The notes beneath the pieces are model-generated. The model did not search any database. It was given only the letters and a program-made list of their open reading frames with translations, and was not told the DNA's origin. The translations under genes were made by a program, and so were the position numbers. This document shows positions 3,705 to 49,182 of a DNA stretch of 64,000 nt, piece by piece. Within the stretch, counting starts at the first letter, position 1; each line of letters starts with the position of its first letter. This DNA is from Pseudooceanicola batsensis HTCC2597 (GTDB lineage: Bacteria > Pseudomonadota > Alphaproteobacteria > Rhodobacterales > Rhodobacteraceae), in contig NZ_AAMO01000009.1 of the NCBI RefSeq assembly GCF_000152725.1, positions 1 through 64,000 on the forward strand, written 5' to 3'.

Positions 3705-4529
3705 TCAGAAGTAGAACCGCGAGGCGGAATAGCTGACCGGGTCGATGTTCATCGTGATCTCGATGATCGAGGCGGCGGCGTTGCCGGAATTGCCGGTCAG
3801 CATCTGCAGCGCGCCGTTGCTCTGCGTCGAGGTGCCGCTCAGCGCGTCCGAAATGGCGACATATTTCCGCACCAGCTTGTCGACCACCTCGGGATCGCTC
3901 AGCGTGTCGAGGTCGATCTTGCTTTCCAGCAGTTCGGCCTGCTTGTCGATGTCGATGCCCGACATCTGCGACGGCAGCCCGAGCGCGGTCTGGAAGAACC
4001 GCGTCATCTGGTTGTCCTTGAGGATATCGAAGACCGAGTTGATGTCGCCGACCTTGTTGCGGAACTCGAGCGCGATCCCGACCGTCTCGTTCTGCTCTTC
4101 GGTGAAGTTGATGAACTGCCGTTCCACGTAACGGTCGACCATGCGGTTCTGCCAGGTGTTGAGGATCGTGTTCAGGTTCCCCTCCCCGTCCGTGCCGAAG
4201 CCGAGTTCGTTGTACATCTCGCGGAAGCGCGGATCCGTCAGCCGGTTCACCAGCGCGTCGTTCTCCTCGATGTTGCTCTTGAGAACCTTTTCGATCATCG
4301 CCTTGCCGAAGATCTGGTCCTCGAGATCGAAGGCGCGCATCACGAAGGCGTAGAGCTCCTGGTCCTCCAGCAGCTGATCCACGGTCTCCACGTCCTTGAT
4401 ATTCGCCTTGAAGTGCTCGATCGCGCGCTTGTGCTGCGCAGAGTTGCGAATGAGATCGAGTTGCGTGTCCCTGGTCTGCTCGACCAGTTTCAGGCCCGTG
4501 ATGGACGGGAGACCGGATGTGGGGATCAT
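3705..4529 (-). CDS. DUF1217-family flagellar-cluster protein
   Basis: A 274-residue protein resembling the DUF1217 family found in flagellar clusters of Rhodobacterales and rhizobia. It is mostly helical, with a patterned N-terminal part (residues ~10-120, FEKANIKDVE-like helices and DPRFREMYNELGFG) and an Ala/Ser-rich C-terminus; no catalytic motif or signal peptide is visible. I chose the ATG at 4529 because it overlaps the flbT stop as ATGA; the open frame continues upstream, but only as Arg/Pro-rich shadow of flbT. Its molecular role is unknown. Co-transcription with flbT and flaF suggests a part in filament or flagellin control. Confidence 0.8.
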   Translation of the reverse strand: MIPTSGLPSITGLKLVEQTRDTQLDLIRNSAQHKRAIEHFKANIKDVETVDQLLEDQELYAFVMRAFDLEDQIFGKAMIEKVLKSNIEENDALVNRLTDPRFREMYNELGFGTDGEGNLNTILNTWQNRMVDRYVERQFINFTEEQNETVGIALEFRNKVGDINSVFDILKDNQMTRFFQTALGLPSQMSGIDIDKQAELLESKIDLDTLSDPEVVDKLVRKYVAISDALSGTSTQSNGALQMLTGNSGNAAASIIEITMNIDPVSYSASRFYF

Positions 4530-5008
4530 CCTGCTTCTCGGCGGTACGCCGGCTCCTCTTCCTGGACGACGTGCTGGCCGTCGCGCTCCATTTCGTCGCG
4601 CAGGCTGGCGGGGCGCGGCACGTTCGCCCCGAGGATCTCGGCCTCGCGTTTCATCAGCGGACGCAGGGCGCGCAGGGCTTTGTAGAAATCGCCCTGGCTG
4701 ACGAAGTTCGCGGCCTCGAACACGCAATGCACGTTCGGCGGCCCGAATGCGGTGGCCAGCGCCGCCAGCTGCTGCTGGATCGGCTTGCGCAGCTTGTCCT
4801 GCAGGGCGGGATCCGTCAGCGCGGTCTGGACCAGGAAATAGGCCTGGTTCACCGGCGTCACGGCCGCCTTCTTGCTCAGCAGGTCCTGGCCGCGCACGAC
4901 GTCGGCCTTGGTCTCGATGACGATCGTCGACTTGCGGGTCGAGTTGCGGACCACGCATCCGTTGATGACGAGCCTCTCGAACGGTTTCAGTGTAAGTTGC
5001 AGCGCCAT
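4526..5008 (-). CDS. flbT: Flagellin translation regulator FlbT
   Basis: A 160-residue protein matching FlbT along its length: N-terminus LQLTLKPFERLVINGCVVRN, then KSTIVIETKADVVRG and a helical C-terminal half. In Caulobacter, FlbT represses flagellin synthesis by acting on the 5' untranslated region of fljK mRNA, opposed by FlaF. Here flbT lies directly downstream of flaF (3-base gap) and the four flagellin genes, all of which carry a conserved hairpin pair in their leaders (6417-6445, 7556-7585, 8677-8707, 9780-9810). It overlaps the DUF1217 start by 4 bases. Assignment is confident; the RNA target link is inference. Confidence 0.93.
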   Translation of the reverse strand: MALQLTLKPFERLVINGCVVRNSTRKSTIVIETKADVVRGQDLLSKKAAVTPVNQAYFLVQTALTDPALQDKLRKPIQQQLAALATAFGPPNVHCVFEAANFVSQGDFYKALRALRPLMKREAEILGANVPRPASLRDEMERDGQHVVQEEEPAYRREAG

Positions 5009-5011
5009 CCG

Positions 5012-5410
5012 TCAGCCCCTCGGTCCGGGTGAGTGGCCGGAGAGGCCGGAGATGAGGTTCTGGTTGATCTGGACCAGCACGCCCAGCCCGGCGCTGCCGC
5101 CAAGGCAGTTGGCCGTCTGGCGTTCCACGAACAGCGCCAGCGAGATTAGGCCGGCCTTCAGCTGAACCGGCAGACCGTTTTCGGGCTGGGAAAGATCGTG
5201 CTTGATCGTGGACCAGAGCTTGAGGTTCTCGGCCAGGTGCGACCGAAGCCCGCCGGCCAGGAGATCGGCCCTGTCCGCGCGCGAGGCGGCCTTGTCGAAG
5301 GGCGTTGATTTCTTTTCGAGTTCGCCCGTCACGCGAAGGAAGACCCTCCGTTCGATCTGTCGGGGGGACTCACTTTCTCGGATCGTGCGTTTGTACGCCG
5401 CGATGCTCAT
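5012..5410 (-). CDS. flaF: Flagellar biosynthesis regulator FlaF
   Basis: A 132-residue helical protein with the FlaF N-terminus (AAYKRTIRESESPRQIERRVF) and the conserved central LKLWSTIKHDLSQPENGLP. In Caulobacter, FlaF is required for flagellin synthesis and secretion and acts opposite to FlbT. Start at ATG 5410; flbT follows after 3 bases. The upstream 135-base gap to the first flagellin contains the hairpin at 5495-5523 and no gene. FlaF is also proposed to act as a flagellin chaperone in Alphaproteobacteria, and no FliS gene is visible here. Confidence 0.92.
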   Translation of the reverse strand: MSIAAYKRTIRESESPRQIERRVFLRVTGELEKKSTPFDKAASRADRADLLAGGLRSHLAENLKLWSTIKHDLSQPENGLPVQLKAGLISLALFVERQTANCLGGSAGLGVLVQINQNLISGLSGHSPGPRG

Positions 5411-5545
5411 CTTGACCTGTCCTCGTGTTCCGCTTTCTGCGGTTTTGATTGTGTGGTTCGTTTTGTGCCCCCGGTTGGGTCCGGGGTGGATTGTCGGAGG
5501 GCCGCGGCCAAAGCGCCCCTCCGCTTTTCATGATCGCTCGGCGCG
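5411..5545. other. Intergenic region flaF / flagellin 1
   Basis: 135 bases without a gene. It contains the hairpin listed at 5495-5523 and a second GC-rich inverted repeat (CCCCGG-TTGGGT-CCGGGG, about 5470-5489). No Shine-Dalgarno-led short frame was seen apart from the flaF leader, and no promoter could be placed with confidence. Confidence 0.5.
5495..5523 (-). terminator. Hairpin after flagellin 1
   Basis: Perfect 7-bp inverted repeat CGGAGGG...CCCTCCG with a 15-base loop, 23 bases downstream of the flagellin 1 stop. No T-run follows on the minus strand, so it may be a processing or stability hairpin, or a leaky terminator between flagellin 1 and flaF, rather than a classical intrinsic terminator. 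Confidence 0.5.
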
Positions 5546-6382
5546 TTACTGGAACAGGCTGAGGATGTTCTGCGGCGACGAGTTCGCGATGGAGAGCGAC
5601 TGCGTGGCCAGCTGCTGCTGCACCTGCTGCGCCTGAAGCCGTGCGGCCTCCTGTTCCATGTCGGCGTCGATCATCGACCCGATGCCGCTGTCGAGCTTGT
5701 CGGTCAACTCGGCCAGGAATTCCTTCTGGGTTTCGATGGACCGTTCGGCAATGCCGAGCGAGGTGGCGGCGGCCACGGCGGCCGAAAGCTGCGCTTCGGC
5801 TTGCTGCAGCACGGCGACCTGCGCCCCGGCCGAGTCGGCGGTGGTGACGTTGATGGCGTTCATGACAGAGGCGATGGCGCCCAGGTCCTGCTGCATGAAG
5901 GACATCGTCGTGGTGCTGATCGTGCCTCCGGCGGCGCGGCTGATCCCGGTGACCAGCGTCACGGTCGTGGCGGCGTTGACATAGTCGGTGCCGTTGAAGG
6001 TCGACTGCGCGATGGTCGTGGTCATACGGGCGACCAGTTCGTCCAGTTCCGCCTGGACGTCGGCGCGGACCTCTTCGGTGCCGCCCTGGGCAAAGGCGAC
6101 GCGTTCGACGAAATCATTCGCCAGTTCGACCAGCGTTTCGGCGCCGAGGCGCGCGGTCGAGACGGCGTTTTTCTGCAGAGTCAGGGTCTCGTCGATCGCC
6201 TTGAACATGCCGCTGTCGCCGGCCATCGTCTTGGAGATCGAGAAATAGGCTGCGTTGTCCTTGCCCGATGCGATCTTGAGACCGGTGGAAATACGCCCCT
6301 GCGTTTCCGTCAGGTCGTTGTTGATCTGACGCAAAGTGGACAGCGCGGTCATCGCGCTGTGGTTCGTGAGGATAGAAGACAT
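5546..6382 (-). CDS. Flagellin, paralogue 1
   Basis: A 278-residue flagellin with the two conserved terminal coiled-coil regions: N-terminal MSSILTNHSAMTALSTLRQI with the D0/D1 helices, and a C-terminal region ending NSSPQNILSLFQ. The middle is short and Thr/Ala-rich, so the outer variable domain is minimal, as usual for alphaproteobacterial flagellins. It is the most divergent of the four tandem copies (for example ...INNDLTETQ and LAELTDKLDSG) and the only one ending LFQ rather than LFR. Start ATG 6382 has a CGGAGC Shine-Dalgarno 8 bases upstream. It lies immediately upstream of flaF-flbT. Confidence 0.97.
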   Translation of the reverse strand: MSSILTNHSAMTALSTLRQINNDLTETQGRISTGLKIASGKDNAAYFSISKTMAGDSGMFKAIDETLTLQKNAVSTARLGAETLVELANDFVERVAFAQGGTEEVRADVQAELDELVARMTTTIAQSTFNGTDYVNAATTVTLVTGISRAAGGTISTTTMSFMQQDLGAIASVMNAINVTTADSAGAQVAVLQQAEAQLSAAVAAATSLGIAERSIETQKEFLAELTDKLDSGIGSMIDADMEQEAARLQAQQVQQQLATQSLSIANSSPQNILSLFQ

Positions 6383-6416
6383 CTCTTACTGCTCCGATTT
6401 ATTTTTATCGTGTCGC

Positions 6417-6445
6417 CGACTTCTGTCGAAAACGGGCCTGCCCGT
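6417..6445 (-). promoter_or_regulatory. Conserved two-hairpin leader element, flagellin 1 copy
   Basis: In the sense RNA, hairpin A (ACGGG-CAGG-CCCGU, 6445-6432) is followed by hairpin B (CGAC-AGAA-GUCG, 6428-6417), about 35 bases before the start codon. Hairpin A matches the copies at flagellins 3 and 4. Hairpin B differs from the other copies at two base pairs, both compensated (G-C to A-U, A-U to C-G). Candidate FlbT-responsive RNA element. Confidence 0.7.
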
Positions 6446-6642
6446 GCGCGCACCGTAACACCTCTGATTGTGAATGTGTAAGAGAATATTTGCACGTGCA
6501 GCGACTGTTGCACAGGCGTCACGCCCCGCACCCTTTCAGGGCAGGTGGCGCAGGTATATCAATAAGTGCAATTACGTCAGTGCAATAGCCCGGCAGACAC
6601 GGTGTGCGTCAGCAAAAGATCGGGGGTATGCAGTCGTGGTGA

Positions 6643-6662
6643 GGCCGCGTTCTGCCGCGGCC
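6643..6662 (-). terminator. Hairpin after flagellin 2
   Basis: Perfect 7-bp inverted repeat GGCCGCG-TTCTGC-CGCGGCC located 28 bases past the flagellin 2 stop. No T-run follows on the minus strand. It probably ends or stabilises the flagellin 2 transcript, in line with a hairpin after every flagellin gene here. Confidence 0.55.
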
Positions 6663-6689
6663 CCGATTGTTGACTAAGTGCTATTCCTG

Positions 6690-7526
6690 TTAGCGGAACA
6701 GACTGAGGATGTTCTGTGGTGCCGAATTCGCGATCGAGAGCGATTGCGTCGCCAGCTGCTGCTGGACCTGCAAGGCCTGAAGCCGCGCCGCCTCGTCCTC
6801 CATGTTGGCGTCCACCATCGAGCCGATGCCGCTGTCGAGCCGGTCGGTCAGTTCGCCGAGGAAGTCCTTCTGCGTCTCGATGGATTTCTCCGCGATACCC
6901 AGGGCCGTGGCCGAGGCGACGGCGGCGGAAAGCTGGTACTCGGCCGCCTGCAGCGCAGAGGCCTGTTGCGTGGCCGTGCCCGCAGAAGCGATCGAGACCG
7001 CATCGAGCGCGGACTGGATTGCGCCCAGATCCTGCTGCATGAAGGACATCGTGGTGGTCGAGATCGAGCCCGAAGAGGACCGGCTGATCCCGGTGACGAC
7101 CGTCACCGTGCTGTTCGCGTTGACGTAGTCGGCGCCGTTGAAGGTCGACTGCGCGATCGTGGTCGCCATGCGGGCGGCCAGTTCGTCAAGCTCGGCCTGA
7201 ACGTCGTTGCGGACTTCCTGGGTGCCGCCCTGCGCGAAGGCGACGCGCTCGACAAAGTCCTGGGCCAGGTCCACCAGGGTTTCGGCGCCGAGGCGCGCGG
7301 TCGAGACGGCGTTTTTCTGAAGTGTCAGGTTCTCGTCGATCGCTTTGAACATGCCGCTGTCGCCGGCCATCGTCTTGGAGATCGAGAAGTAGGCGGCGTT
7401 GTCCTTGCCCGAAGAGATATTCAGGCCCGTCGAGATCCGGCCTTGCGTGTCCGAAAGGTCGGAGTTGATCGAACGAAGGGTCGACAGGGCGGTCATCGCG
7501 CTGTGGTTTGTCAGGATGGAAGACAT
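6690..7526 (-). CDS. Flagellin, paralogue 2
   Basis: A 278-residue flagellin, the same length as its three tandem neighbours, with the shared N-terminal MSSILTNHSAMTALSTLRSI and C-terminal SIANSAPQNILSLFR. Differences from paralogues 3 and 4 cluster in the central region (residues ~170-200, VSIASAGTATQQASALQAA), where the surface-exposed part of the filament protein lies. ATG 7526 has CGGAGC as Shine-Dalgarno and its own leader hairpins and terminator, so it can be transcribed alone. Multiple flagellins usually co-assemble in alphaproteobacterial filaments; relative expression cannot be read here. Confidence 0.97.
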   Translation of the reverse strand: MSSILTNHSAMTALSTLRSINSDLSDTQGRISTGLNISSGKDNAAYFSISKTMAGDSGMFKAIDENLTLQKNAVSTARLGAETLVDLAQDFVERVAFAQGGTQEVRNDVQAELDELAARMATTIAQSTFNGADYVNANSTVTVVTGISRSSSGSISTTTMSFMQQDLGAIQSALDAVSIASAGTATQQASALQAAEYQLSAAVASATALGIAEKSIETQKDFLGELTDRLDSGIGSMVDANMEDEAARLQALQVQQQLATQSLSIANSAPQNILSLFR

Positions 7527-7555
7527 TGTCTGCTCCGATTATTCTTATCTATTTA

Positions 7556-7585
7556 TCGGATTTCTTCCGAACCCGGGCCTGCCCG
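7556..7585 (-). promoter_or_regulatory. Conserved two-hairpin leader element, flagellin 2 copy
   Basis: Sense RNA: hairpin A (CGGG-CAGG-CCCG, 7585-7574) then hairpin B (UCGGA-AGAAA-UCCGA, 7570-7556). The downstream arm UCCGA plus the following U is fully complementary to AUCGGA, which contains the Shine-Dalgarno CGGA at 7534-7537, so the arm could pair either within hairpin B or with the ribosome binding site. Confidence 0.72.
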
Positions 7586-7605
7586 TTGGGCCAGTAAACA
7601 AGGAC

Positions 7606-7613
7606 TTTCGGGC
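7606..7613 (-). promoter_or_regulatory. GCCCGAAA element upstream of flagellin 2
   Basis: GCCCGAAA on the minus strand, preceded by an AT-rich TTAATTTT, ends 20 bases before hairpin A. The same element with the same spacing precedes flagellin 3 (8728-8735). It loosely resembles a flagellar sigma-28 -10 box (GCCGATAA) but no matching -35 is clear. Confidence 0.35.
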
Positions 7614-7744
7614 AAAATTAAGAAACCGGTCACAAAGAGCGCACTTTATCGCGAGTTTTTTTCCGTGATTTGCCAAAAGGTTGTGTGGCGCTCGCGTGGA
7701 TCGGGGCGAAATGTGGCGGAAATGGGGCAAAGGATCGGCAAAAT

Positions 7745-7773
7745 CGGAAGGCCGCGACCAGGGCGGCCTTCCG
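7745..7773 (-). terminator. Intrinsic terminator after flagellin 3
   Basis: Perfect 11-bp inverted repeat (CGGAAGGCCGC, 7-base loop, GCGGCCTTCCG) followed on the minus strand by ATTTTG, starting 35 bases past the flagellin 3 stop. This is a convincing rho-independent terminator and supports separate transcription of flagellin 3. Confidence 0.82.
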
Positions 7774-7808
7774 AAGGTTCTCGGCCCTGGCGGGCTAGCC
7801 GAAGCGGA

Positions 7809-8645
7809 TCAACGGAACAGGCTCAGGATGTTCTGAGGGGCCGCATTCGCGATCGAGAGCGACTGCGTCGCCAGCTGTTGCTGGACCTGCAGGGCCTGAA
7901 GTCGCGCCGCCTCGTCCTCCATGTTGGCGTCGACCATCGACCCGATGCCGCTGTCGAGCCGGTCGGTCAGTTCGCCAAGGAAGTCCTTCTGCGTCTCGAT
8001 GCTTCTCTCGGCGATCCCGAGCGAGGTCGCCGCGGCCACGGCGGCCGACAGCTGCGCCTCGGCGGTCTGCAGCGCGGTCGCCTGCGCGCCGGCGGAATCC
8101 GCACCCGTCAGGTCGATCACGCTCAGCGCCGTCTGGATCGCGCCCAGGTCCTGCTGCATGAAGGACATCGTGGTGGTCGAGATCGAGCCCGAAGAGGACC
8201 GGCTGATCCCGGTGACGACTGTCACCGTGCTGTTCGCGTTGACATAGTCGGCACCGTTGAAGGTCGACTGCGCGATGGTGGTCGCCATGCGCGCGACCAG
8301 CTCGTCGAGCTCGGCCTGCACATCGACACGCACTTCTTCGGTGCCGCCCTGCGCGAAGGCGACGCGCTCGACGAAATCCTGGGCCAGGTCCACCAGGGTT
8401 TCGGCGCCGAGGCGCGCGGTCGAGACGGCGTTTTTCTGCAGCGTCAGCGTCTCGTCGATCGCCTTGAACATGCCGCTGTCGCCGGCCATCGTCTTGGAGA
8501 TCGAGAAATAGGCGGCGTTGTCCTTGCCCGATGCGATGCTCAGGCCGGTCGAGATCCGGTTCTGCGTGCTCGCAAGGTCGCCGTTGATTTGCCGCAGGGT
8601 GGACAGCGCCGTCATGGCGCTGTGATTGGTGAGAATGGAAGACAT
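7809..8645 (-). CDS. Flagellin, paralogue 3
   Basis: A 278-residue flagellin. The open frame extends farther upstream, but I start at ATG 8645: it gives MSSILTNHSAMTALSTLRQI, identical in position to the other copies, has CGGAGC at the same distance, and leaves the leader hairpins untranslated. Its central region (VIDLTGADSAGAQATALQTAEAQL) is shared almost exactly with paralogue 4, suggesting recent duplication or gene conversion between these two. C-terminus SIANAAPQNILSLFR. A strong terminator at 7745-7773 follows. Confidence 0.97.
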   Translation of the reverse strand: MSSILTNHSAMTALSTLRQINGDLASTQNRISTGLSIASGKDNAAYFSISKTMAGDSGMFKAIDETLTLQKNAVSTARLGAETLVDLAQDFVERVAFAQGGTEEVRVDVQAELDELVARMATTIAQSTFNGADYVNANSTVTVVTGISRSSSGSISTTTMSFMQQDLGAIQTALSVIDLTGADSAGAQATALQTAEAQLSAAVAAATSLGIAERSIETQKDFLGELTDRLDSGIGSMVDANMEDEAARLQALQVQQQLATQSLSIANAAPQNILSLFR

Positions 8646-8676
8646 GGTCTGCTCCGATATGTTTCTTATCGAGTCA

Positions 8677-8707
8677 TCGGATTTCTTCCGAAAACGGGCC
8701 TGCCCGT
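8677..8707 (-). promoter_or_regulatory. Conserved two-hairpin leader element, flagellin 3 copy
   Basis: Sense RNA: hairpin A (ACGGG-CAGG-CCCGU, 8707-8694) then hairpin B (UCGGA-AGAAA-UCCGA, 8691-8677). As in flagellin 2, UCCGAU can alternatively pair with AUCGGA overlapping the Shine-Dalgarno (8653-8656). Confidence 0.72.
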
Positions 8708-8727
8708 ACTGCAGAGTCTGCGCCCGG

Positions 8728-8735
8728 TTTCGGGC
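8728..8735 (-). promoter_or_regulatory. GCCCGAAA element upstream of flagellin 3
   Basis: GCCCGAAA preceded by TTATTTAT on the minus strand, 20 bases before hairpin A, the same arrangement as at flagellin 2 (7606-7613). Possible -10-like promoter element shared by two flagellin genes; not obvious at flagellins 1 and 4. Confidence 0.35.
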
Positions 8736-8864
8736 ATAAATAAGATAGCGAAACCACCCGAGACCGCGCGCAAGCTGCGCGGGATCCAAGCGTAAATTCA
8801 TATAGTTGAATTTTTTTGCCCGCCGAATTGCGGCAGAAATGTGGCGAATCAGCTTCAAAAGCAA

Positions 8865-8890
8865 AGGGGAGGCCGCGCGCGGCCTCCCCT
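8865..8890 (-). terminator. Intrinsic terminator after flagellin 4
   Basis: A perfect 26-base palindrome (13-base arms, AGGGGAGGCCGCG and its complement) ends 20 bases past the flagellin 4 stop and is followed on the minus strand by TTTGCTTTTG. The strong stem plus T-rich tail fit a rho-independent terminator. Confidence 0.8.
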
Positions 8891-8909
8891 CGTCATCCAG
8901 GTACCCGCC

Positions 8910-9746
8910 TCAGCGGAACAGGGACAGGATGTTCTGTGGCGCCGAGTTGGCGATGGAGAGTGACTGCGTCGCCAGCTGTTGCTGGACCTGCAAGGCCTGA
9001 AGCCGCGCCGCTTCGTCCTCCATGTTGGCGTCGACCATCGAGCCGATGCCGCTGTCCAGCCGGTCGGTCAGTTCGCCGAGGAAGTCCTTCTGCGTCTCGA
9101 TGCTCTTCTCGGCAATGCCGAGCGAGGTCGCCGCGGCCACGGCGGCCGACAGCTGCGCCTCGGCGGTCTGCAGCGCGGTCGCCTGCGCGCCAGCGGAATC
9201 CGCGCCCGTCAGGTCGATCACGCTCAGCGCCGTCTGGATCGCGCCCAGGTCCTGCTGTGCGAAGGACAGCGTCGTGGTCGTGATCGACCCCGAGGAGGAG
9301 CGGCTGATGCCGGTGACGACGGTCACGTTGGCGGTCGAGTTCACATAGTCGGCGCCGTTGAAGGTCGACTGGGAAATCGTGGTGGCCATCCGTGCGGTGA
9401 GTTCGTTGAGTTCCGCCTGAACGTCTGCGCGGACCTCTTCGGTTCCGCCCTGTGCAAAGGCGACGCGCTCGACAAAGTCGTTGGCCAGGTCGACCAGGGT
9501 CTCGGCGCCGAGGCGCGCGGTCGAGACGGCGTTCTGTTGCAGGGTCAGGTTCTCGTCGATCGCCTTGAACATGCCGGAGTCGCCGGACATCGTTTTCGAG
9601 ATCGAGAAATAGGCGGCATTGTCCTTGCCCGAAGAGATGTTCAGACCGGTCGAGATACGGCCCTGGGTGGCCGAAAGGTCAGAGTTGATCGAGCGCAGGG
9701 TGGACAGCGCGGTCATCGCGCTGTGGTTCGTCAGGATGGAGGACAT
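8910..9746 (-). CDS. Flagellin, paralogue 4
   Basis: A 278-residue flagellin, first of the tandem set in the direction of transcription. The open frame continues upstream, but ATG 9746 gives the shared MSSILTNHS start and a CGGAGC Shine-Dalgarno. Small differences mark it out: AGDSG is SGDSG, QKN is QQN, and MSFMQQ is LSFAQQ. The leader hairpins at 9780-9810 and terminator at 8865-8890 define a separate transcription unit. The region upstream overlaps the 3' end of the FlgN-like gene's intergenic space, so its promoter is compact. Confidence 0.97.
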   Translation of the reverse strand: MSSILTNHSAMTALSTLRSINSDLSATQGRISTGLNISSGKDNAAYFSISKTMSGDSGMFKAIDENLTLQQNAVSTARLGAETLVDLANDFVERVAFAQGGTEEVRADVQAELNELTARMATTISQSTFNGADYVNSTANVTVVTGISRSSSGSITTTTLSFAQQDLGAIQTALSVIDLTGADSAGAQATALQTAEAQLSAAVAAATSLGIAEKSIETQKDFLGELTDRLDSGIGSMVDANMEDEAARLQALQVQQQLATQSLSIANSAPQNILSLFR

Positions 9747-9779
9747 ATTCTGCTCCGCAGTTTTTTTGTTATCGCGTAA

Positions 9780-9810
9780 CCAGATTTCTTCCGGTGACGG
9801 GCCTGCCCGT
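9780..9810 (-). promoter_or_regulatory. Conserved two-hairpin leader element, flagellin 4 copy
   Basis: Sense RNA: hairpin A (ACGGG-CAGG-CCCGU, 9810-9797) then hairpin B (CCGGA-AGAAA-UCUGG, 9794-9780). The middle pair of hairpin B is G-U in the sense RNA but would be a C-A mismatch in the antisense strand, so the pairing is preserved only in flagellin mRNA. Confidence 0.72.
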
Positions 9811-11872: not shown

Positions 11873-12586
11873 ATGCATATTTATCTTTACGAGCCGCGCG
11901 CGGATCGTCTCAACGGACTCATGGTTGAACTCCGGTCGGCGCGGATGAAGCCGGTGCCCATCCAGGCCGCCTTCTTCCGCGGCGAGCTCGGGCTTCTCAA
12001 CCGGGGCGGGCACGAGGACCGGCCCTTCCTGCTGGCCGAGAACCCCGACCTGCTGGACCAGATCGCCGCGCTGCGCGCCGCCGGCTGCTCGAACCCGATC
12101 CTGGTGATGCGCGATTTCCGCAATTCGCGCGACACCGCCGCCGCGCTCGATGCGGGCGCCGACGACGACATCGTCATTCCGGTGAAGGCGGTCGAGCTGC
12201 GCTCGCGGATCAACTCGATCACCCGCCGCTCGCACGGCCATGCCGCCGAAAGCATCCAGGTCGGCGAGGTCACGGCCTTTTTCGACGGGCGCGATCCGGA
12301 GGTGTCGGGCGGCGTGGTCAAGCTGTCGCGGCGCGAACATGCGATCTTTCAGCAGCTGGTGCTGAATGCCGGTCGCGTAGTATCCAAGGGGGCGATCTAC
12401 GACGCGGTTTACGGCATGGCCGAGGATCAGCCCTTCGACAAGGTGATCGACGTCTACATCTGCAAGATCCGCAAGAAGATCGACCAGGCCTCGGCGTCCG
12501 GTCACAACTATATCGAGACGGTGCACGGCCGGGGCTACAAGTTCTCCGCCGCCCCCGAGATCCTCAAACGCGCCGGGGGCATGTAA
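11873..12586 (+). CDS. ftcR: FtcR-like flagellar response regulator (OmpR/CtrA type)
   Basis: A 237-residue OmpR-family regulator with a receiver-like N-terminal domain (residues ~1-115) and a winged-helix DNA-binding domain (~125-225, KLSRREHAIFQQLVLNAGRV, then KVIDVYICKIRKKI and TVHGRGYKF). It resembles FtcR, the flagellar class regulator of Brucella and relatives. The receiver looks degenerate: the beta-3 region reads RPFLLAENPDLLDQI, without the usual phospho-Asp followed by a Pro three or four residues on. No histidine kinase gene is adjacent. It is probably a master regulator of this cluster; a more distant CtrA-like role is possible. Confidence 0.8.
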   Translation: MHIYLYEPRADRLNGLMVELRSARMKPVPIQAAFFRGELGLLNRGGHEDRPFLLAENPDLLDQIAALRAAGCSNPILVMRDFRNSRDTAAALDAGADDDIVIPVKAVELRSRINSITRRSHGHAAESIQVGEVTAFFDGRDPEVSGGVVKLSRREHAIFQQLVLNAGRVVSKGAIYDAVYGMAEDQPFDKVIDVYICKIRKKIDQASASGHNYIETVHGRGYKFSAAPEILKRAGGM

Positions 12587-12732: not shown

Positions 12733-13815
12733 TCAGCGCATGAAGTTGACGAAGGACAGCTGCGACAGCCGCGCCGTCACGGCATAGCTGGCCTGAAGCT
12801 GGGTCTGCGTCGACGTCAGCCGCGAGGCCGCCTCGAAGGGATCAACCGACTCCAGTTCGCTGATGTGCAGGGTCAGGACCTCGCGCTTGGCGTGCAGCCG
12901 GTCGTTGGAATCCTCGACCAGTTTCTGCATGCTGCCCGTCCGTGCCTCGGCGTTCAGCACGCCCGTCACCCCGGCGCCGAGCGCGGCCGCCGCCTCGCCC
13001 ACCCAGGCCTCGTAGGCGCCGTCGTCCGTGATCGTCGCCGGATCGCCCGCGGCCAGCATGGCCAGCCCGCGCATCATGTCGCGGAATCCCCTGTCGTTCG
13101 CCTGGACGCCATAGCCGATGTCCAGGTTCTCGTCGATCGACGCCGCCAGGCGGGGGTTTGCATTGCCCAGCCCGTCCTCGAGCGGGGTGCCGTTGAAGAA
13201 CGTCGCCTCGTACCCCCAGGCAGGGTTCGCGGGCGTGCCGTTGAAGACCGCGTCGATCTCGGCCAGCTTGGCGTTCGCGTCCGCCGCATCGGTGATCCCG
13301 CCGCCGACGATGGTCGACATCACGTCCGAGGCGCTGAGCCCGGTGGCCGCGTCCCTCTCCGCCCAGCTGTTCATCGCGGTCCGGTCGCTGTCGACGCCGC
13401 CGAACAGCGCCTTGCCGTTGTAGCTCGCGTTCATGAACGAGACGATGGAGTCATAGGCGTCCTGCGCGAGGTCCTTGAGGTAGAGCTGCCGGGACGAGGT
13501 CGGATCGGTGTTCGAAATCGTCATCGTCAGCACGTCCTGCGCCGCGTCGCGCACATTGCCGAGCGCGGTGGCCATGAGATCGAGCCGGTTCTGCAGCAGG
13601 GTGTTGGATTCGATCCGCCCCTCGGTCCGCTCATAGACGGCGCGGGTGTTCATCGCCTCGACCGCCCGGGTACCAAGCGCGGAAAACGGGTCGGCATGGC
13701 GCCCGGTCGCGACCTCTTCCTCGGCGATCATCATCAGCCGGGTCATGTCGGTCGTTGTGCGCTGCCGGGTCAGCAGGCTCTGCAGGGACGAAACGGTCTG
13801 GACGTAAGAGATCAT
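12733..13815 (-). CDS. flgL: Hook-filament junction protein FlgL (HAP3)
   Basis: A 360-residue flagellin-like protein with the HAP3 N-terminal helix (SSLQSLLTRQRTTTDMTRLM) and a C-terminal coiled coil ending LTSTQTQLQASYAVTARLSQLSFVNFMR. It joins FlgK to the filament. Transcribed after flgK with a 12-base gap, as the last gene of the flgE-flgK-flgL set. A strong inverted repeat follows. No cysteine or enzymatic motif; length is normal for the family. Confidence 0.93.
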   Translation of the reverse strand: MISYVQTVSSLQSLLTRQRTTTDMTRLMMIAEEEVATGRHADPFSALGTRAVEAMNTRAVYERTEGRIESNTLLQNRLDLMATALGNVRDAAQDVLTMTISNTDPTSSRQLYLKDLAQDAYDSIVSFMNASYNGKALFGGVDSDRTAMNSWAERDAATGLSASDVMSTIVGGGITDAADANAKLAEIDAVFNGTPANPAWGYEATFFNGTPLEDGLGNANPRLAASIDENLDIGYGVQANDRGFRDMMRGLAMLAAGDPATITDDGAYEAWVGEAAAALGAGVTGVLNAEARTGSMQKLVEDSNDRLHAKREVLTLHISELESVDPFEAASRLTSTQTQLQASYAVTARLSQLSFVNFMR

Positions 13816-13827
13816 GGGTCAGCCCCC

Positions 13828-15240
13828 TCAGAACATGTTCAGCAGCGTGTCGATCATCTCGGACGCGACACGCAGGGCCTGGGAGTTTGCGTTGTAGGAT
13901 TGCTCGATCAGCGACAGGTTCTGCAATTCGGTGTCGATGTTGACGCCGCGGGCGTTCAGGCGCGCCGCGCGATAGGTCTCGGAACTGGCAATCAGCGAAT
14001 TCAGGTTGCTCTCGGCATCGACCCGCCGCGCCTGCTGTTGCGAGATGGCGCCGGTGGTAAAGTCCATGATCGTGCCGGTGGCCCCCTGCCCCGCCGCCGG
14101 ATCGAAGGCGACCTGCGTGTCGAAGAAATCGAGGAAGGCCAGGACCTGCGTGTTGTCCGAGGCGGCGCCGGTCGTCACGGCCCCGATCCCGTCGCGCAGC
14201 AGGGACAGGTCGCCGCCCCGGAAAGGATCGATCGCATCGTTCACGGCGATCCGTCCGGCCAGCCCCGGCGTCACCGGTGAGCCGAGCGCCATGCCGCCGT
14301 TGGTAAATAGCCCCGCCTGCCCCGGAGCGAGCGAGGTGTCGGCATCCTCGAACCCCTGGATCAGACCCCGGGCGATCTCGTCCAGTTCCAGCCGCTGCTG
14401 CGGCACGACGTCGTTGAGCAGTGTGACGTAGCCCGACAACGACCCCTGTTCGGCGCCGCGCCGGCCGGCCACGCCCGGCGTCACGTCCTGGTCGCCGGAA
14501 TAGAGCGTGCCGGTCGGCCGGTCGAAACTGAATTCGTTCACATGCCCCGCGACCACCAGCGACTGCCCGCCCGCGGCGTGAACATTCGCCCGGCCGTCGG
14601 TGTCGTAGGACACCTGGATCTGGACGATGTTCGCCAGCTTGTCGAGCTCGGCCGCGCGCCGGTCCTCGAGCGCGGCATAGGTTTCGGTGCCCTGCTCCGT
14701 CTTGCCGATATCCGCATTGATCCGGGCGAGTTCGCGGAGCGCCTCATTCGCCGCCGAGATGTCGTTGCCGATGCCGTTGACCGCCGTGGTCTCGACCGTG
14801 TTCAGGGCCGAGTTCGCGCTGCGGATCGCCCCGGTCAGCGCCTTGGCCGAGAGGTAGACCTCCTGCTGCAGGCTCGCATCGCCGGGATCGTTCGACAGCA
14901 GTCCGAGGTCGTTCTGGAACGCCGAGAGCAGGTTCGGAATGCTCGTTTCGGTATCCAGCTCGCCCAGCTCCGCGCCATAGACGCCCAGCGTCGTGGCCAT
15001 GGCGTCCTGTTTCGCGGCAAAGGACATTTCGGTGCGATAGAGCGCGTCCATCGCCGTATCCATCGCGCGCGCGACGCCGATCACCCGGACGCCGCCGCCG
15101 AGCGCCTCGGTCACTTCCAGGCTGCGGTGCGAATAGTTTTCGTCCTGGGCGTGCGCGATGTTGGTCGAGACCAGCTGCGCCCGCTGGGAATTCGCCTGCA
15201 GGCCCGACCGGCTGGCGAGAATGGCGGTAAGAATGCTCAT
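13828..15240 (-). CDS. flgK: Hook-filament junction protein FlgK (HAP1)
   Basis: A 470-residue protein with the rod/hook-family N-terminus (ILASRSGLQANSQRAQLVSTNIAHAQDENYS) and a FlgK C-terminus (NTELQNLSLIEQSYNANSQALRVASEMIDTLLNMF, shown here in part). It caps the hook and anchors FlgL and the filament. In the region where many family members have NIANA the motif is NIAHA. The 62-base gap from flgE holds the Shine-Dalgarno and no obvious promoter, so it is probably read through from flgE. Confidence 0.95.
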   Translation of the reverse strand: MSILTAILASRSGLQANSQRAQLVSTNIAHAQDENYSHRSLEVTEALGGGVRVIGVARAMDTAMDALYRTEMSFAAKQDAMATTLGVYGAELGELDTETSIPNLLSAFQNDLGLLSNDPGDASLQQEVYLSAKALTGAIRSANSALNTVETTAVNGIGNDISAANEALRELARINADIGKTEQGTETYAALEDRRAAELDKLANIVQIQVSYDTDGRANVHAAGGQSLVVAGHVNEFSFDRPTGTLYSGDQDVTPGVAGRRGAEQGSLSGYVTLLNDVVPQQRLELDEIARGLIQGFEDADTSLAPGQAGLFTNGGMALGSPVTPGLAGRIAVNDAIDPFRGGDLSLLRDGIGAVTTGAASDNTQVLAFLDFFDTQVAFDPAAGQGATGTIMDFTTGAISQQQARRVDAESNLNSLIASSETYRAARLNARGVNIDTELQNLSLIEQSYNANSQALRVASEMIDTLLNMF

Positions 15241-15302
15241 AGACCTTATCCTTCTGGATGTGGTCCGCCGCGCCCGTTTCTACAGGCGCGGCGATATCGT
15301 CA

Positions 15303-26590: not shown

Positions 26591-27610
26591 TCAGCGATTC
26601 GGCGCGTCCATATCCGGCGCCAATGGCGCGGGATAGGCGAGAAGGACGCCGATGCGCCGGTTCTCGGCCGCCTCCGGATCGTCGGCGTTCAGCGGATCGG
26701 TCGAGGCGAGCCCCGAGATCCGCTTGATCCGCGCGGGCGAGACGCCGGTGTCGATTAGCACCCGCCGCGTGGCATTTGCGCGGTCGGCCGACAGTTCCCA
26801 GTTCGAATAGCCCAGGTTGTTCACGAAGGGCACCGCGTCGGTATGGCCCGTGATGACGATGGCGTTCTGCATGTCGACGATGGATTCCCCGATGATGCGG
26901 ATCAGGTCGCGGGTGCGGCTGTCGACCCGGGCCGAGCCGCGGGCGAACATCGACCGGCCCTCCTTGTCCATGATCTGGACCAGCAGCCCCTCGGAGGTGC
27001 GGTCGAACCGCAGGTTCTCGCCCAGATCCTCGAGATCGACGCGCTCCTGGATGTGCCGGCGGATCTCCTCCTCCAGCCGCTCCATGTTCGCCTCTCGCTC
27101 CTTCACCTCGGCCTGGTACTGCTCTTCGAGCGCCTGCCGCTCCGCCGCCTGCTCGGCCGCGGATCCGTCCTCCTCGTCCTCGCCCTCGCCCATGGATTTC
27201 GGCTCCATCGTGCCGTCCTCCTTGGTCTCGTATTCGACGATGACATCCGTGGCCTCGTCGCGCAGGCGGCTGTCGAAGACGGCAAGCGGGTTCTCCTGTC
27301 CGAAACTGGGCAGGCGGGTGTTGCCGTCGGGCGTGTTCGACCCGCCCTGGTCCCCGTTCGGGGCGATGATCGTCCCGTCCAGCATCCCCTGCCCCTTGCC
27401 GCCGGCCTGCGACAGCGACGGGGTGAAATAGTCGGCCAGCCCGCGCAGCGCCTCTTCGTCCGAGGCCGCGAGGATCCACAACAGCAGGAAGAAGGCCATC
27501 ATGGCGGTCATGAAGTCGGCATAGGCCACCTTCCAGCCGCCGCCGTGGTGTCCGCCACCGCCTTCGCCCTCGATCTTCTTGATGATGATCGGTTGTTCGT
27601 TGCTCGCCAT
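26591..27610 (-). CDS. motB: Flagellar stator protein MotB
   Basis: A 339-residue protein with a short cytoplasmic start, one membrane helix (residues ~28-50, VAYADFMTAMMAFFLLLWIL) carrying the proton-binding Asp32, a long Glu-rich coiled linker (~130-185), and a C-terminal OmpA-like peptidoglycan-binding domain (VITGHTDAVPF, NWELSADRANATRRVL). The linker is longer than in enteric MotB. It forms the stator with MotA, whose gene is separate at 33137-34003. It follows mucR paralogue 1 by 26 bases, suggesting co-transcription. Confidence 0.96.
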   Translation of the reverse strand: MASNEQPIIIKKIEGEGGGGHHGGGWKVAYADFMTAMMAFFLLLWILAASDEEALRGLADYFTPSLSQAGGKGQGMLDGTIIAPNGDQGGSNTPDGNTRLPSFGQENPLAVFDSRLRDEATDVIVEYETKEDGTMEPKSMGEGEDEEDGSAAEQAAERQALEEQYQAEVKEREANMERLEEEIRRHIQERVDLEDLGENLRFDRTSEGLLVQIMDKEGRSMFARGSARVDSRTRDLIRIIGESIVDMQNAIVITGHTDAVPFVNNLGYSNWELSADRANATRRVLIDTGVSPARIKRISGLASTDPLNADDPEAAENRRIGVLLAYPAPLAPDMDAPNR

Positions 27611-47207: not shown

Positions 47208-49182
47208 CGCTGCTGCTCCTTTCCGCGCTCACGAGCTGCGATTGTTCGGGGGACTTCCGAGGGGTGAAAGTGTATTCTGCCGGGTCGAACCTTCGGGTCA
47301 GCGCCCAGTAGTCGACCAGTCGCCAGGGCGACGTGATCGTGACCCTGTTCTTGTCGTTCTTGTACCAGCTGTTCACCCCGGGATGCGACCAGACCATGTT
47401 CTTGCAGGCTTCGTCGACGCGGTCGTTGTAGCGATCGTGAACGTCCTGACGGACCTCAACAGAAGCTTGGTCCCGTTCGATCGTCTCGCGCATCGCCTGC
47501 AGGATGTACTTGACCTGGCATTCGATGTGGAAAATCGCGCTGCCGCCATGTGCCAAGCCGGTATTTGGCCCCAAGGTCATGAACAGGTTGGGAAAATTCG
47601 GAGCCGCTATGCCAAGGTAGGCGCGCGGGTCCTCTCCCGCCCATTGATCGGAAAGTTGGCGCTCGCCGCGCCCGGCGACCTCGAGCGGCCACAGGACCCG
47701 CGTGGCGTTGAAGCCGGTGGCCAGGATCAGGACATCGGCGGCGTGCGTCACGCCATCCGAGGTCTCGACACCCTCCGGCACCACCCGGCTGATCGCGGTG
47801 TCGATCAGATCCACATTGCCGCGCAACACCGTCTTGTACCAGTTGTTGTCGCGTAGCATCCGTTTGCCGTAGGGCGGATAGCTGGGCACGCATTTGCGGA
47901 TCAGTTCTTCGTCGCCGTTCAACTGCTCCTTGATGTAGTTGACCAGCATTTCCCGCATCGCGTGGTTTTCGCGGTTCAGAGAGATGTCGGGCTGGGGCCA
48001 GTCCGGATCCATCTTGAGGGTGCTGTGGAAGCCGTCGGAGGAGGCCCAGAACATCAGGAACCGCTGCCATTCCGCGAACAGCGGAACGTTGGCCAGCGCC
48101 CACATCTGCCCCTCGGAGACCGTCTTGTGGTAGAGGGGGTTGTACCCGGCCCAATGCGGCGACCTCTGGAAGATGCTGAGATGCCGGACCTTGCCGGCGA
48201 TGGCGGGTCCGGCCTGCATGCCGCTGGCCCCGGTGCCGATCATCGCCACACGCTTGCCGGCGAGCTCGACCTCGTGGTCCCACTCCGCGGTGTGAAACTT
48301 TGCGCCCCGGAAGTCGTCCAGCCCGGCGATATCGGGATAGGCCGGGCGATTCAGTATGCCGACCGCGGTGATGACGAACCGGCTATCGTGCAGGGAAGTT
48401 CTGCCATCCCTGTGGCGCAGGCGTGACTGCCAACGGGCCGAAGCCTCGTCCCAGGCCATGGATTCCACTTCGACCCCGAAGCGGATGTGATCGCGGATCC
48501 CGTAGTCACGCACCGTTTCGAGGATATAGTTCAGGATCTCGTCCCGTTTCGAGAAGTAGCGGGACCAGTCCGCCTTGGGCTTGAACGAGTAGGAATAGAT
48601 GTGGTTCGCGGTATCGACGCCGCAGTCCGGATAGTCGTTTTCCAGCCAGGTGCCGCCGATGTCGTCGTTCTTCTCGACGATTTCGTAGGGGATGCCGGCC
48701 TCCTGCAGGCGGACCGCGGCACAGATGCCGGACAGCCCCGCACCGATGACCAGGACCTTGTGGTCCTCCAGCCTCTGCTCGGAGGGTCGGGTCCGCCACT
48801 GCAGACGACGCGTGTCGGTCTCTGCAAGGCCCAGTTCTTCAACGACAAGAGGCTGGTATTCTTCGGGAACCTCCTGCCCGGTGGCCAAGGTCATCATCTC
48901 TTGCATGAGCGCACGCGGCGGTTCGCGCGGCGGGAAGTCCCCCGTGACGTCCAGATGCTGGAGGGTCTGGACCAGGCGGTCGATGATTTCTGCACGCAAC
49001 TCATCGGGCAGGGACTGCATGTAGTCCCAGGCTCCGTCGATATGAGGGGCCGCCTTTTCCAGCAGGCTCGTGTCGCCGCTGAGATGCGTGGTGACGAGCA
49101 GGGTCGTCAGGATCTCGGCTTCTGCCAATGCTGACCGGAGGGCCGCTTCGTCCTCGATGGATCTGGACGTCAGGTTCTTCAT
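47200..49182 (-). CDS. Baeyer-Villiger monooxygenase 1 (4-hydroxyacetophenone monooxygenase type)
   Basis: A 660-residue flavin monooxygenase. After an N-terminal ~135-residue helical extension typical of HAPMO-type enzymes come the FAD motif VIGAGLSG (147-152), GGTWLENDYPDCGVD (176-190), the BVMO fingerprint FRGAKFHTAEWD (291-302, His297 present) and the NADPH motif GTGASG (316-321). It should insert oxygen next to a carbonyl to make an ester or lactone. Start ATG 49182 has AGGGGG upstream; longer open frame beyond is non-coding. Coupled with the hydrolase. Substrate unknown. Confidence 0.92.
   Translation of the reverse strand: MKNLTSRSIEDEAALRSALAEAEILTTLLVTTHLSGDTSLLEKAAPHIDGAWDYMQSLPDELRAEIIDRLVQTLQHLDVTGDFPPREPPRALMQEMMTLATGQEVPEEYQPLVVEELGLAETDTRRLQWRTRPSEQRLEDHKVLVIGAGLSGICAAVRLQEAGIPYEIVEKNDDIGGTWLENDYPDCGVDTANHIYSYSFKPKADWSRYFSKRDEILNYILETVRDYGIRDHIRFGVEVESMAWDEASARWQSRLRHRDGRTSLHDSRFVITAVGILNRPAYPDIAGLDDFRGAKFHTAEWDHEVELAGKRVAMIGTGASGMQAGPAIAGKVRHLSIFQRSPHWAGYNPLYHKTVSEGQMWALANVPLFAEWQRFLMFWASSDGFHSTLKMDPDWPQPDISLNRENHAMREMLVNYIKEQLNGDEELIRKCVPSYPPYGKRMLRDNNWYKTVLRGNVDLIDTAISRVVPEGVETSDGVTHAADVLILATGFNATRVLWPLEVAGRGERQLSDQWAGEDPRAYLGIAAPNFPNLFMTLGPNTGLAHGGSAIFHIECQVKYILQAMRETIERDQASVEVRQDVHDRYNDRVDEACKNMVWSHPGVNSWYKNDKNRVTITSPWRLVDYWALTRRFDPAEYTFTPRKSPEQSQLVSAERSSSDD

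Follow-up and report, generated by a model that had tools for sequence, protein, structure and literature searches.

The window analysed here, a stretch of 64,000 nucleotides from the start of contig NZ_AAMO01000009.1 of Pseudooceanicola batsensis HTCC2597, carries four flagellin genes beside the genes for FlaF and FlbT. Each flagellin leader holds a short hairpin, here called hairpin B, with an AGAA or AGAAA loop, and the same kind of hairpin recurs on stems of differing sequence before flagellin genes of related genomes. Judging from sequence comparison, we consider it moderately probable that hairpin B is the recognition hairpin of FlbT, which likely binds the AGAA loop and controls translation or decay of the flagellin mRNA. 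An earlier note on this DNA had described hairpin B together with a neighbouring hairpin A as one two-stem element; the finding now looks larger than first stated, the element looking like a widespread AGAA hairpin joined by a local one, and the regulator looking CsrA-like. Comparison supports an RNA function and a connection with FlbT: the stem of hairpin B has two-sided changes, its loop is conserved on the sense strand, the hairpin is nearly confined to flagellin leaders, and such loops go with FlbT-encoding rather than CsrA-encoding genomes. The part of the earlier proposal that did not stand is the two-stem unit.

The four flagellin leaders

The flagellin genes lie on the minus strand and encode 278 amino acids each, flagellins 1-3 being 82-91% identical to flagellin 4. 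Reading of the sense strand confirmed the shared layout of all four leaders, namely hairpin A, hairpin B, a spacer and CGGAGCAG before ATG (Table 1). Three further observations of the earlier note were also correct: the outer pair of hairpin A is lost in flagellin 2 (7585-7574), hairpin B of flagellin 4 contains a G-U pair (9795-9779), and FlbT is encoded beside the flagellins. The loop of hairpin A is CAGG in the four leaders, and CGGGCAGGCCCG (hairpin A) has eight exact copies genome-wide, four of them in these leaders. An arm able to pair with the Shine-Dalgarno region is present in 18 of 40 leaders, including those of flagellins 1-3 and excluding that of flagellin 4, a count without shuffle control that weakens the idea of a general Shine-Dalgarno sequestration by the 3′ arm of hairpin B or by a candidate hairpin C. 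In flagellin 2 this arm is the 3′ arm of hairpin B itself, so that the two structures would compete.

Conservation of the hairpins in relatives

Hairpin B was recorded where an AGAA(N) loop 25-70 nucleotides upstream of a flagellin gene was closed by at least three pairs, G-U allowed. By this rule it is present in 39 of 45 distinct leaders of same-size flagellins (the four of the window counted), with the loop 36-46 nucleotides, once 58, before ATG. The loop is AGAAA in 20 of these leaders, AGAA in 16 and AGAAU in 3, while the stems vary (CGAC/GUCG, CGGA/UCCG, CGUC/GACG, CAGUC/GACUG, UGUC/GACG, GGUCC/GGACC). Counted over the four loop-side pairs, 155 of 156 cells show standard pairing in register, compared with 17-50 of 156 when slid, a result that is partly built in because the hairpins were selected by their loop and at least three pairs. 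The six leaders lacking hairpin B come from three loci (L097-L099), and two have GUC-AGAAU-G[AG]C about 90 nucleotides upstream; GUC-AGAAN-G[AG]C is also found in 15 of 21 leaders of longer or fla1-like flagellins, starting 78-99 nucleotides upstream.

The ACGGG form of hairpin A accompanies hairpin B in 22 of the 39 leaders, the remaining leaders having different hairpins or no clear one. Of the two, hairpin B is conserved and widespread and hairpin A is lineage-specific, so that a fixed two-stem element is not borne out.

Covariation and covariance-model search

Alignment A8 comprises 13 distinct stretches spanning both hairpins, from the window and its relatives. Of its cells 95.4% are paired in register, compared with 18-51% when slid; of the 17 rows of alignment A7 it retains 13, all four rows with a tetraloop in hairpin B having been left out (MAFFT misalignment), and the pairing figures are therefore favoured. 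Cells changed on both sides number 14 (5.4 in shuffles) and the covariation score is 0.282 (0.096 in shuffles), values that none of 500 shuffles reaches. The changes sit in helix B, with loop-side pairs GC:6 UA:5 AU:2 and CG:7 AU:6 and an outer pair UA:10 CG:1. The four inner pairs of hairpin A are invariant in the 13 rows, so there is no covariation support for A there, and the compensatory changes that the earlier note had seen in the pairing stand for B only.

A covariance model built from A8, named R2, was used to score 150 candidates per genome. In the window genome (G000) the four leaders are matched with E values of 2.2e-7 to 5.9e-4 and the next place listed has E = 0.44, among the 150 that were scored out of 5847 first-look candidates. 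The leader of flagellin 1 (E = 5.9e-4) is matched though it is no row of the model, the other three leaders being model rows. The match to both hairpins in the four leaders is beyond chance. Across 22 genomes of the same genus R2 finds 19 places with E below 0.01, 18 of them directly before flagellins, and the next place among the 150 candidates per genome has E = 0.245; the 19th lies at a contig edge (G017:C60). R2 recovers 18 of 19 same-type flagellin leaders read in the genus, and three of its matches are tetraloop leaders that are no rows of the model, that of flagellin 1 included. Among 295 genomes from the family R2 finds nine places in six genomes (four of them in the window genome), all nine before flagellins; one of these, in G109, precedes a flagellin of 329 amino acids recognized on reading, below the protein-search threshold. 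A search of the kind proposed as a check in the earlier note leads almost only to flagellin leaders.

AGAA hairpins outside flagellin leaders

Leaders of other genes (90 nucleotides, at least three Watson-Crick pairs) were surveyed as controls, several of these genes lying inside operons. Before six other flagellar genes AGAA hairpins occur in 1 of 120 leaders (flbT 0/30, flgL 0/18, flgE 0/18, flgN 0/20, flgJ 0/16, flgI 1/18). With at least four Watson-Crick pairs, the whole 64 kb contain 11 AGAA hairpins on both strands, four in the flagellin leaders, one each in the flaF and flgK leaders and five elsewhere. In clusters of this type hairpin B is almost confined to flagellin leaders.

In the flaF leader the CCGC..GCGG stem is kept in near relatives, with the loops AGAAU, ACAA or AUAA. 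The flgK hairpin at 15248-15259, which lies over the Shine-Dalgarno region, may be a chance occurrence; the flgK leader of one relative (L209 in G012) has UUCC-AGAA-GGAA at the same place together with GGUC-AGAAU-GACC, and none is found in the other 16 relatives.

FlbT and CsrA genomes across the class

In a draw of 114 genomes of Alphaproteobacteria, almost every one representing a separate family, 38 encode FlbT and 23 encode CsrA, and a single genome (G385) encodes both, compared with 7.7 expected. The window genome has no match to PF02599 (CsrA) at E = 1e-5, in an assembly that is 92% complete. For the leaders, 162 of 235 flagellin starts were kept after removal of duplicates and of starts with fewer than 60 nucleotides upstream, open reading frames without ATG at the expected place never being counted. 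Of these, 104 leaders make up the class set; they come from 57 genomes, out of at least 63 with a flagellin match, with the window genome excluded; 29 of these genomes encode FlbT, 19 encode CsrA only and nine encode neither, and the statistics ignore phylogeny.

Hairpins closed by C-G, with at least three Watson-Crick pairs in the last 120 nucleotides, carry an AGAA loop in 12 of the 29 FlbT genomes (mean 0.66 and maximum 4 in 200 shuffles) and an AAAA loop in 9, with one or the other in 14. An AGGA loop is present in 9 of the 19 CsrA-only genomes and in 1 of the 29 FlbT genomes (p = 0.0004, phylogeny ignored), and in 8 of the 19 when at least four pairs are asked for (shuffle mean 0.12). Among all 256 tetraloops on at least three pairs, AGAA is the commonest in genomes that encode FlbT, and AGGA in those that do not. 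Of the hairpins over the Shine-Dalgarno region, UCC-AGAAN-GGA was seen among FlbT genomes only (6 of 29, compared with 0 of 28 others) and UCC-AAGUA-GGA among CsrA-only genomes only (7 of 19, compared with 0 of 38 others). With 12 of 29, AGAA as a rule for all FlbT genomes is rejected.

Among individual leaders, eight from CsrA-bearing genomes (L104, L106, L112, L121, L122, L131, L132, L134) have AGGA or AGGU loops, seven of them also with UCC-AAGUA-GGA over the Shine-Dalgarno region, and three sigma54-type leaders from FlbT genomes (L128, L129, L148) carry AAAAU loops on GC stems beginning at most 1 nucleotide from the predicted transcript start.

Likeness of FlbT to CsrA

When 24 FlbT sequences were compared as a profile with 10 CsrA sequences from Alphaproteobacteria by hhalign, FlbT 3-40 aligned to CsrA 2-45 without rearrangement (probability 87-93; E = 4e-6 with the full alignment, or 4e-7 with its first 48 columns alone, as a single comparison). 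The score of 34.7 compares with 18.8 for the best of 300 column shuffles, 12.2 for the C-terminal part of FlbT and 11.1 for the reversed alignment. The nearly invariant R39 of FlbT is aligned to R44 of CsrA, which is invariant in the CsrA alignment and is an RNA-contacting residue. CsrA is a strand-swapped dimer with a five-strand fold, and AlphaFold models of FlbT, as single chains, place five strands in residues 3-39, followed by helices. By its sequence, the N-terminal domain of FlbT looks like a divergent relative of CsrA.

Other searches returned little. A fold search with the N-terminal model gave a best Z of 3.0 among the listed matches, and the Foldseek listing for the whole model was filled by helical bundles; a FliS complex ranked 18th in it, without significance (E = 2.3). 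Sequence searches of the PDB with FlbT gave unrelated proteins with best E values of 1.1 and 0.046, CsrA not being listed. In Pfam all 24 FlbT sequences match PF07378, and ten other families, none of them CsrA, match one or two of the sequences with E values no better than 0.016; without a match to the curated CsrA model, FlbT is not filed as CsrA. Open-licence papers that treat both proteins state no homology in their FlbT passages. In the open-licence PubMed Central literature we found no paper on FlbT as an alphaproteobacterial RNA-binding protein and none on a CsrA-like flagellin factor for Caulobacter.

Proposed mechanism and the points against it

In the mechanism that we propose, hairpin B would serve as a short stem of free sequence that holds out a loop, AGAA or AGAAN, some 40 nucleotides before the start codon. 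The N-terminal domain of FlbT, a divergent CsrA relative, would bind this loop, and bound FlbT would control translation or decay of the flagellin mRNA according to flagellar assembly. Release would follow from FlaF-aided export of flagellin, as described for Caulobacter. Hairpin A may form the 5′ end of the transcript, with a protective role. More tentatively, and as a possibility that falls short of being probable, FlbT may be a re-targeted CsrA: the CsrA-FliW switch would have been replaced by FlbT-FlaF in an ancestor of many Alphaproteobacteria, with binding shifted from GGA to ARAA loops and the layout of a distal hairpin (about 40 nucleotides) plus a Shine-Dalgarno hairpin kept. The genome counts of UCC-AAGUA-GGA and UCC-AGAAN-GGA suggest this last part.

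Several observations weigh against FlbT as the reader of hairpin B. In the class survey AGAA hairpins are also found in 2 of 19 CsrA-only genomes and in 1 of 9 with neither protein, and the contrast between FlbT and CsrA-only genomes has p = 0.026, uncorrected and with phylogeny ignored. The leaders obtained from 17 of the 29 FlbT genomes have no AGAA hairpin, those from 15 have neither AGAA nor AAAA, and with at least four pairs AAAA (9/29, shuffle mean 0.48) is commoner than AGAA (5/29, shuffle mean 0.20), so that the range of ligands may be wider or the connection with FlbT an indirect one. AGAA hairpins also stand in 8 of 24 flaF and 2 of 18 flgK leaders, the window being positive for both genes, and one of the five located elsewhere in the window lies in a terminator-like stem before flgK. 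In A8 the pairs with change on both sides number only three, which 141 of 500 shuffles reach, and the further pair types number five, reached by 436 of 500. R2 misses one leader in the genus search (G017:C8) and 8 of 12 family-level flagellins outside the window genome, the latter because hairpin A differs there. Single FlbT sequences score against CsrA with a median of 18.6 and a maximum of 25.8 (n = 37), compared with a top score of 19.6 for 400 control open reading frames, and CsrA is not among the listed fold matches of the single-chain models (the best 50 of 266 and the best 50 of 230 from Foldseek, and those listed by VIA-align 2). The sign of control is also at issue: passages in two papers have Brucella FlbT as an activator (PMC4347634, PMC8781033), a flbT insertion mutant of Phaeobacter inhibens is given as motile in part of another (PMC11974857), and flbT is among the genes found in an Agrobacterium motility screen (PMC9812332).

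Alternative explanations

Hairpins A and B could be mRNA-stability structures only, without a dedicated protein, which we regard as unlikely though worth weighing. A TTAA-N7-TTAA box, which we take to be the CtrA motif, lies exactly 39 nucleotides before hairpin A in five relatives (perfect in four, one mismatch in one); in a further two leaders a box with one mismatch lies 35 or 46 nucleotides before A, and the other 15 of 22 leaders, including the four of the window, have at least two mismatches. Among 45 leaders with sigma54-like motifs in other families a hairpin lies within 3 nucleotides of the predicted start in 14, a weak point since offsets of +3 to +15 give 10-14 (upstream offsets of -6 to -15 give 2-6), so the count speaks for hairpins in the leader and does not tie one to the start. 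Stability alone does not account for an AGAA loop that is kept while the stems of B vary, for a prevailing loop that differs between FlbT and CsrA genomes, or for the scarcity of such hairpins before the six other flagellar genes even though several lie inside operons. Somewhat less probable still is another factor of the FlbT lineage, such as FlaF or a small RNA, as reader of the AGAA loop. The association of the loop with FlbT is by genome content only, and flaF is conserved and cotranscribed with flbT according to part of PMC9812332, which would suit such a factor; FlbT, however, is the factor reported on flagellin 5′ untranslated regions and has the CsrA-like segment seen by hhalign.

It is improbable that the conserved stretches serve as DNA sites where a transcription factor binds close to the start. 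Hairpin A is a palindrome in DNA near the promoter region with inner pairs invariant in the aligned rows, and for hairpin A alone this explanation may hold; in hairpin B, however, the half-sites change together while a non-palindromic loop stays on the sense strand, flagellin 4 has its G-U pair, and the same loop sits on unrelated stems in other families. An intrinsic terminator or attenuator made of hairpin A and U-rich bases was rejected and seems to us hardly credible: CCCGUUUU follows hairpin A in flagellins 1 and 3, but the U run is not conserved, being absent from flagellin 2 (CCCGGGUUC) and flagellin 4 (CCCGUCACC), and the stem has only 4-5 pairs. CsrA-bound hairpins have loops of the form ANGGA. 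A CsrA-bound hairpin was rejected here, the loops of B being AGAAA, AGAA or AGAAU in the 39 leaders and that of A in the window being CAGG, in a genome with no csrA match at E = 1e-5 (assembly 92% complete).

Genes and neighbouring features of the locus

The contig is 217.6 kb long, in an assembly of 4.44 Mb, and the window covers its first 64 kb. Across this assembly PF00669 matches the four flagellins and one site inside a FlgL-like gene (12733-13815). Half of the Rhodobacterales flagellar gene clusters of fla2 type are on plasmids, as given in part of PMC11974857, and the window contig resembles them in having several flagellins, FlaF and FlbT; we infer from the layout that the cluster is of this often plasmid-borne type. 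The word "UTR" has no occurrence in that paper.

Beside the flagellar genes an OmpR-type regulator is encoded on the plus strand (11873-12586) and may regulate them; its best NCBIfam match is CtrA of Rhodobacterales, from residue 61, with 120.7 bits compared with a cut-off of 350. No known Rfam family reaches its gathering score in the window, and membership in one was rejected. A single sub-threshold match, to sbrA (8859-8934, minus strand; E = 0.0021, 30 bits, gathering score 45), lies at the GC palindrome ending flagellin 4 and is most likely the terminator of that gene.

TABLE 1 Leader hairpins, flagellar genes and further AGAA hairpins of the window (hairpins written as sense RNA)
Feature	Position	Strand	Match or remark
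Hairpin A, flagellin 1: ACGGG-CAGG-CCCGU	6432..6445	-	
Hairpin B, flagellin 1: CGAC-AGAA-GUCG	6417..6428	-	R2 match 6415-6445, E 5.9e-4
Hairpin C candidate, flagellin 1: CGAU...AUCG extending into CGGAG	6395..6410	-	weak, without shuffle control
CGGAGCAG, Shine-Dalgarno region, flagellin 1	6389..6396	-	
Hairpin A, flagellin 2: CGGG-CAGG-CCCG	7574..7585	-	outer pair lost
Hairpin B, flagellin 2: UCGGA-AGAAA-UCCGA	7556..7570	-	R2 E 3.0e-6
CGGAGCAG, flagellin 2	7530..7537	-	AUCGGA also pairable with hairpin B 3′ arm UCCGAU
Hairpin A, flagellin 3	8694..8707	-	
Hairpin B, flagellin 3: UCGGA-AGAAA-UCCGA	8677..8691	-	R2 E 2.2e-7
CGGAGCAG, flagellin 3	8649..8656	-	
Hairpin A, flagellin 4	9797..9810	-	
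Hairpin B, flagellin 4: ACCGGA-AGAAA-UCUGGU, with G-U pair	9779..9795	-	R2 E 2.2e-5
CGGAGCAG, flagellin 4	9750..9757	-	
FlbT (160 amino acids), putative reader of hairpin B, residues 3-40 CsrA-like	4526..5008	-	PF07378 E 5e-31; hhalign
FlaF (132 amino acids)	5012..5410	-	PF07309
Flagellin 1 (278 amino acids)	5546..6382	-	PF00669 + PF00700
Flagellin 2 (278 amino acids)	6690..7526	-	PF00669 + PF00700
Flagellin 3 (278 amino acids)	7809..8645	-	
Flagellin 4 (278 amino acids)	8910..9746	-	
AGAA hairpin, flaF leader: CCGC-AGAAA-GCGG	5430..5442	-	
AUCC-AGAA-GGAU over flgK Shine-Dalgarno	15248..15259	-	
AGAA hairpin, 4 Watson-Crick pairs, away from flagellin leaders	14120-14132	+	
AGAA hairpin, 4 Watson-Crick pairs, away from flagellin leaders	56176-56189	+	
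AGAA hairpin, 4 Watson-Crick pairs, away from flagellin leaders	26656-26668	-	
AGAA hairpin, 4 Watson-Crick pairs, away from flagellin leaders	49115-49128	-	

Relation to known systems and significance

Anderson and Gober reportedly described in 2000 the control of a Caulobacter crescentus flagellin 5′ untranslated region by FlbT. Passages in two reviews have FlbT acting on flagellin 5′ untranslated regions (PMC4347634, PMC3930126), and parts of two further papers present the FljJ/FlaF model and FlbT repression with flagellin as co-repressor in Caulobacter (PMC7591256, PMC9812332). The table of the 2015 review gives no recognition sequence for FlbT and the mechanism is called unresolved there (PMC4347634); in the open-licence PubMed Central literature we found no paper linking FlbT to the fljK stem. 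The window shares with the Caulobacter crescentus system the regulator family and the putative placing of control in the flagellin 5′ leader, and differs from it in that the corresponding review passages name no recognition motif, whereas here an AGAA(N)-loop hairpin is defined by comparison.

FlaF and FlbT had earlier been suggested, in a passage of PMC4894983, as an analogue of CsrA-FliW, by analogy and not by homology. The likeness to CsrA-FliW as presented there lies in the short flagellin mRNA hairpins, which share a conserved loop and stand both upstream of the Shine-Dalgarno region and over it. The differences are an AGAA loop in place of the GGA motif, the lack of a CsrA match in the window genome and a helical C-terminal part in FlbT.

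FlbT has been cited as a post-transcriptional regulator of flagellin since 2000, and a defined loop together with a likely CsrA ancestry makes its mechanism directly testable. The two would also make sense of the near-exclusive occurrence of FlbT and CsrA, with both in 1 of 114 genomes, and provide a rule for finding FlbT targets beyond the flagellins, flaF first.

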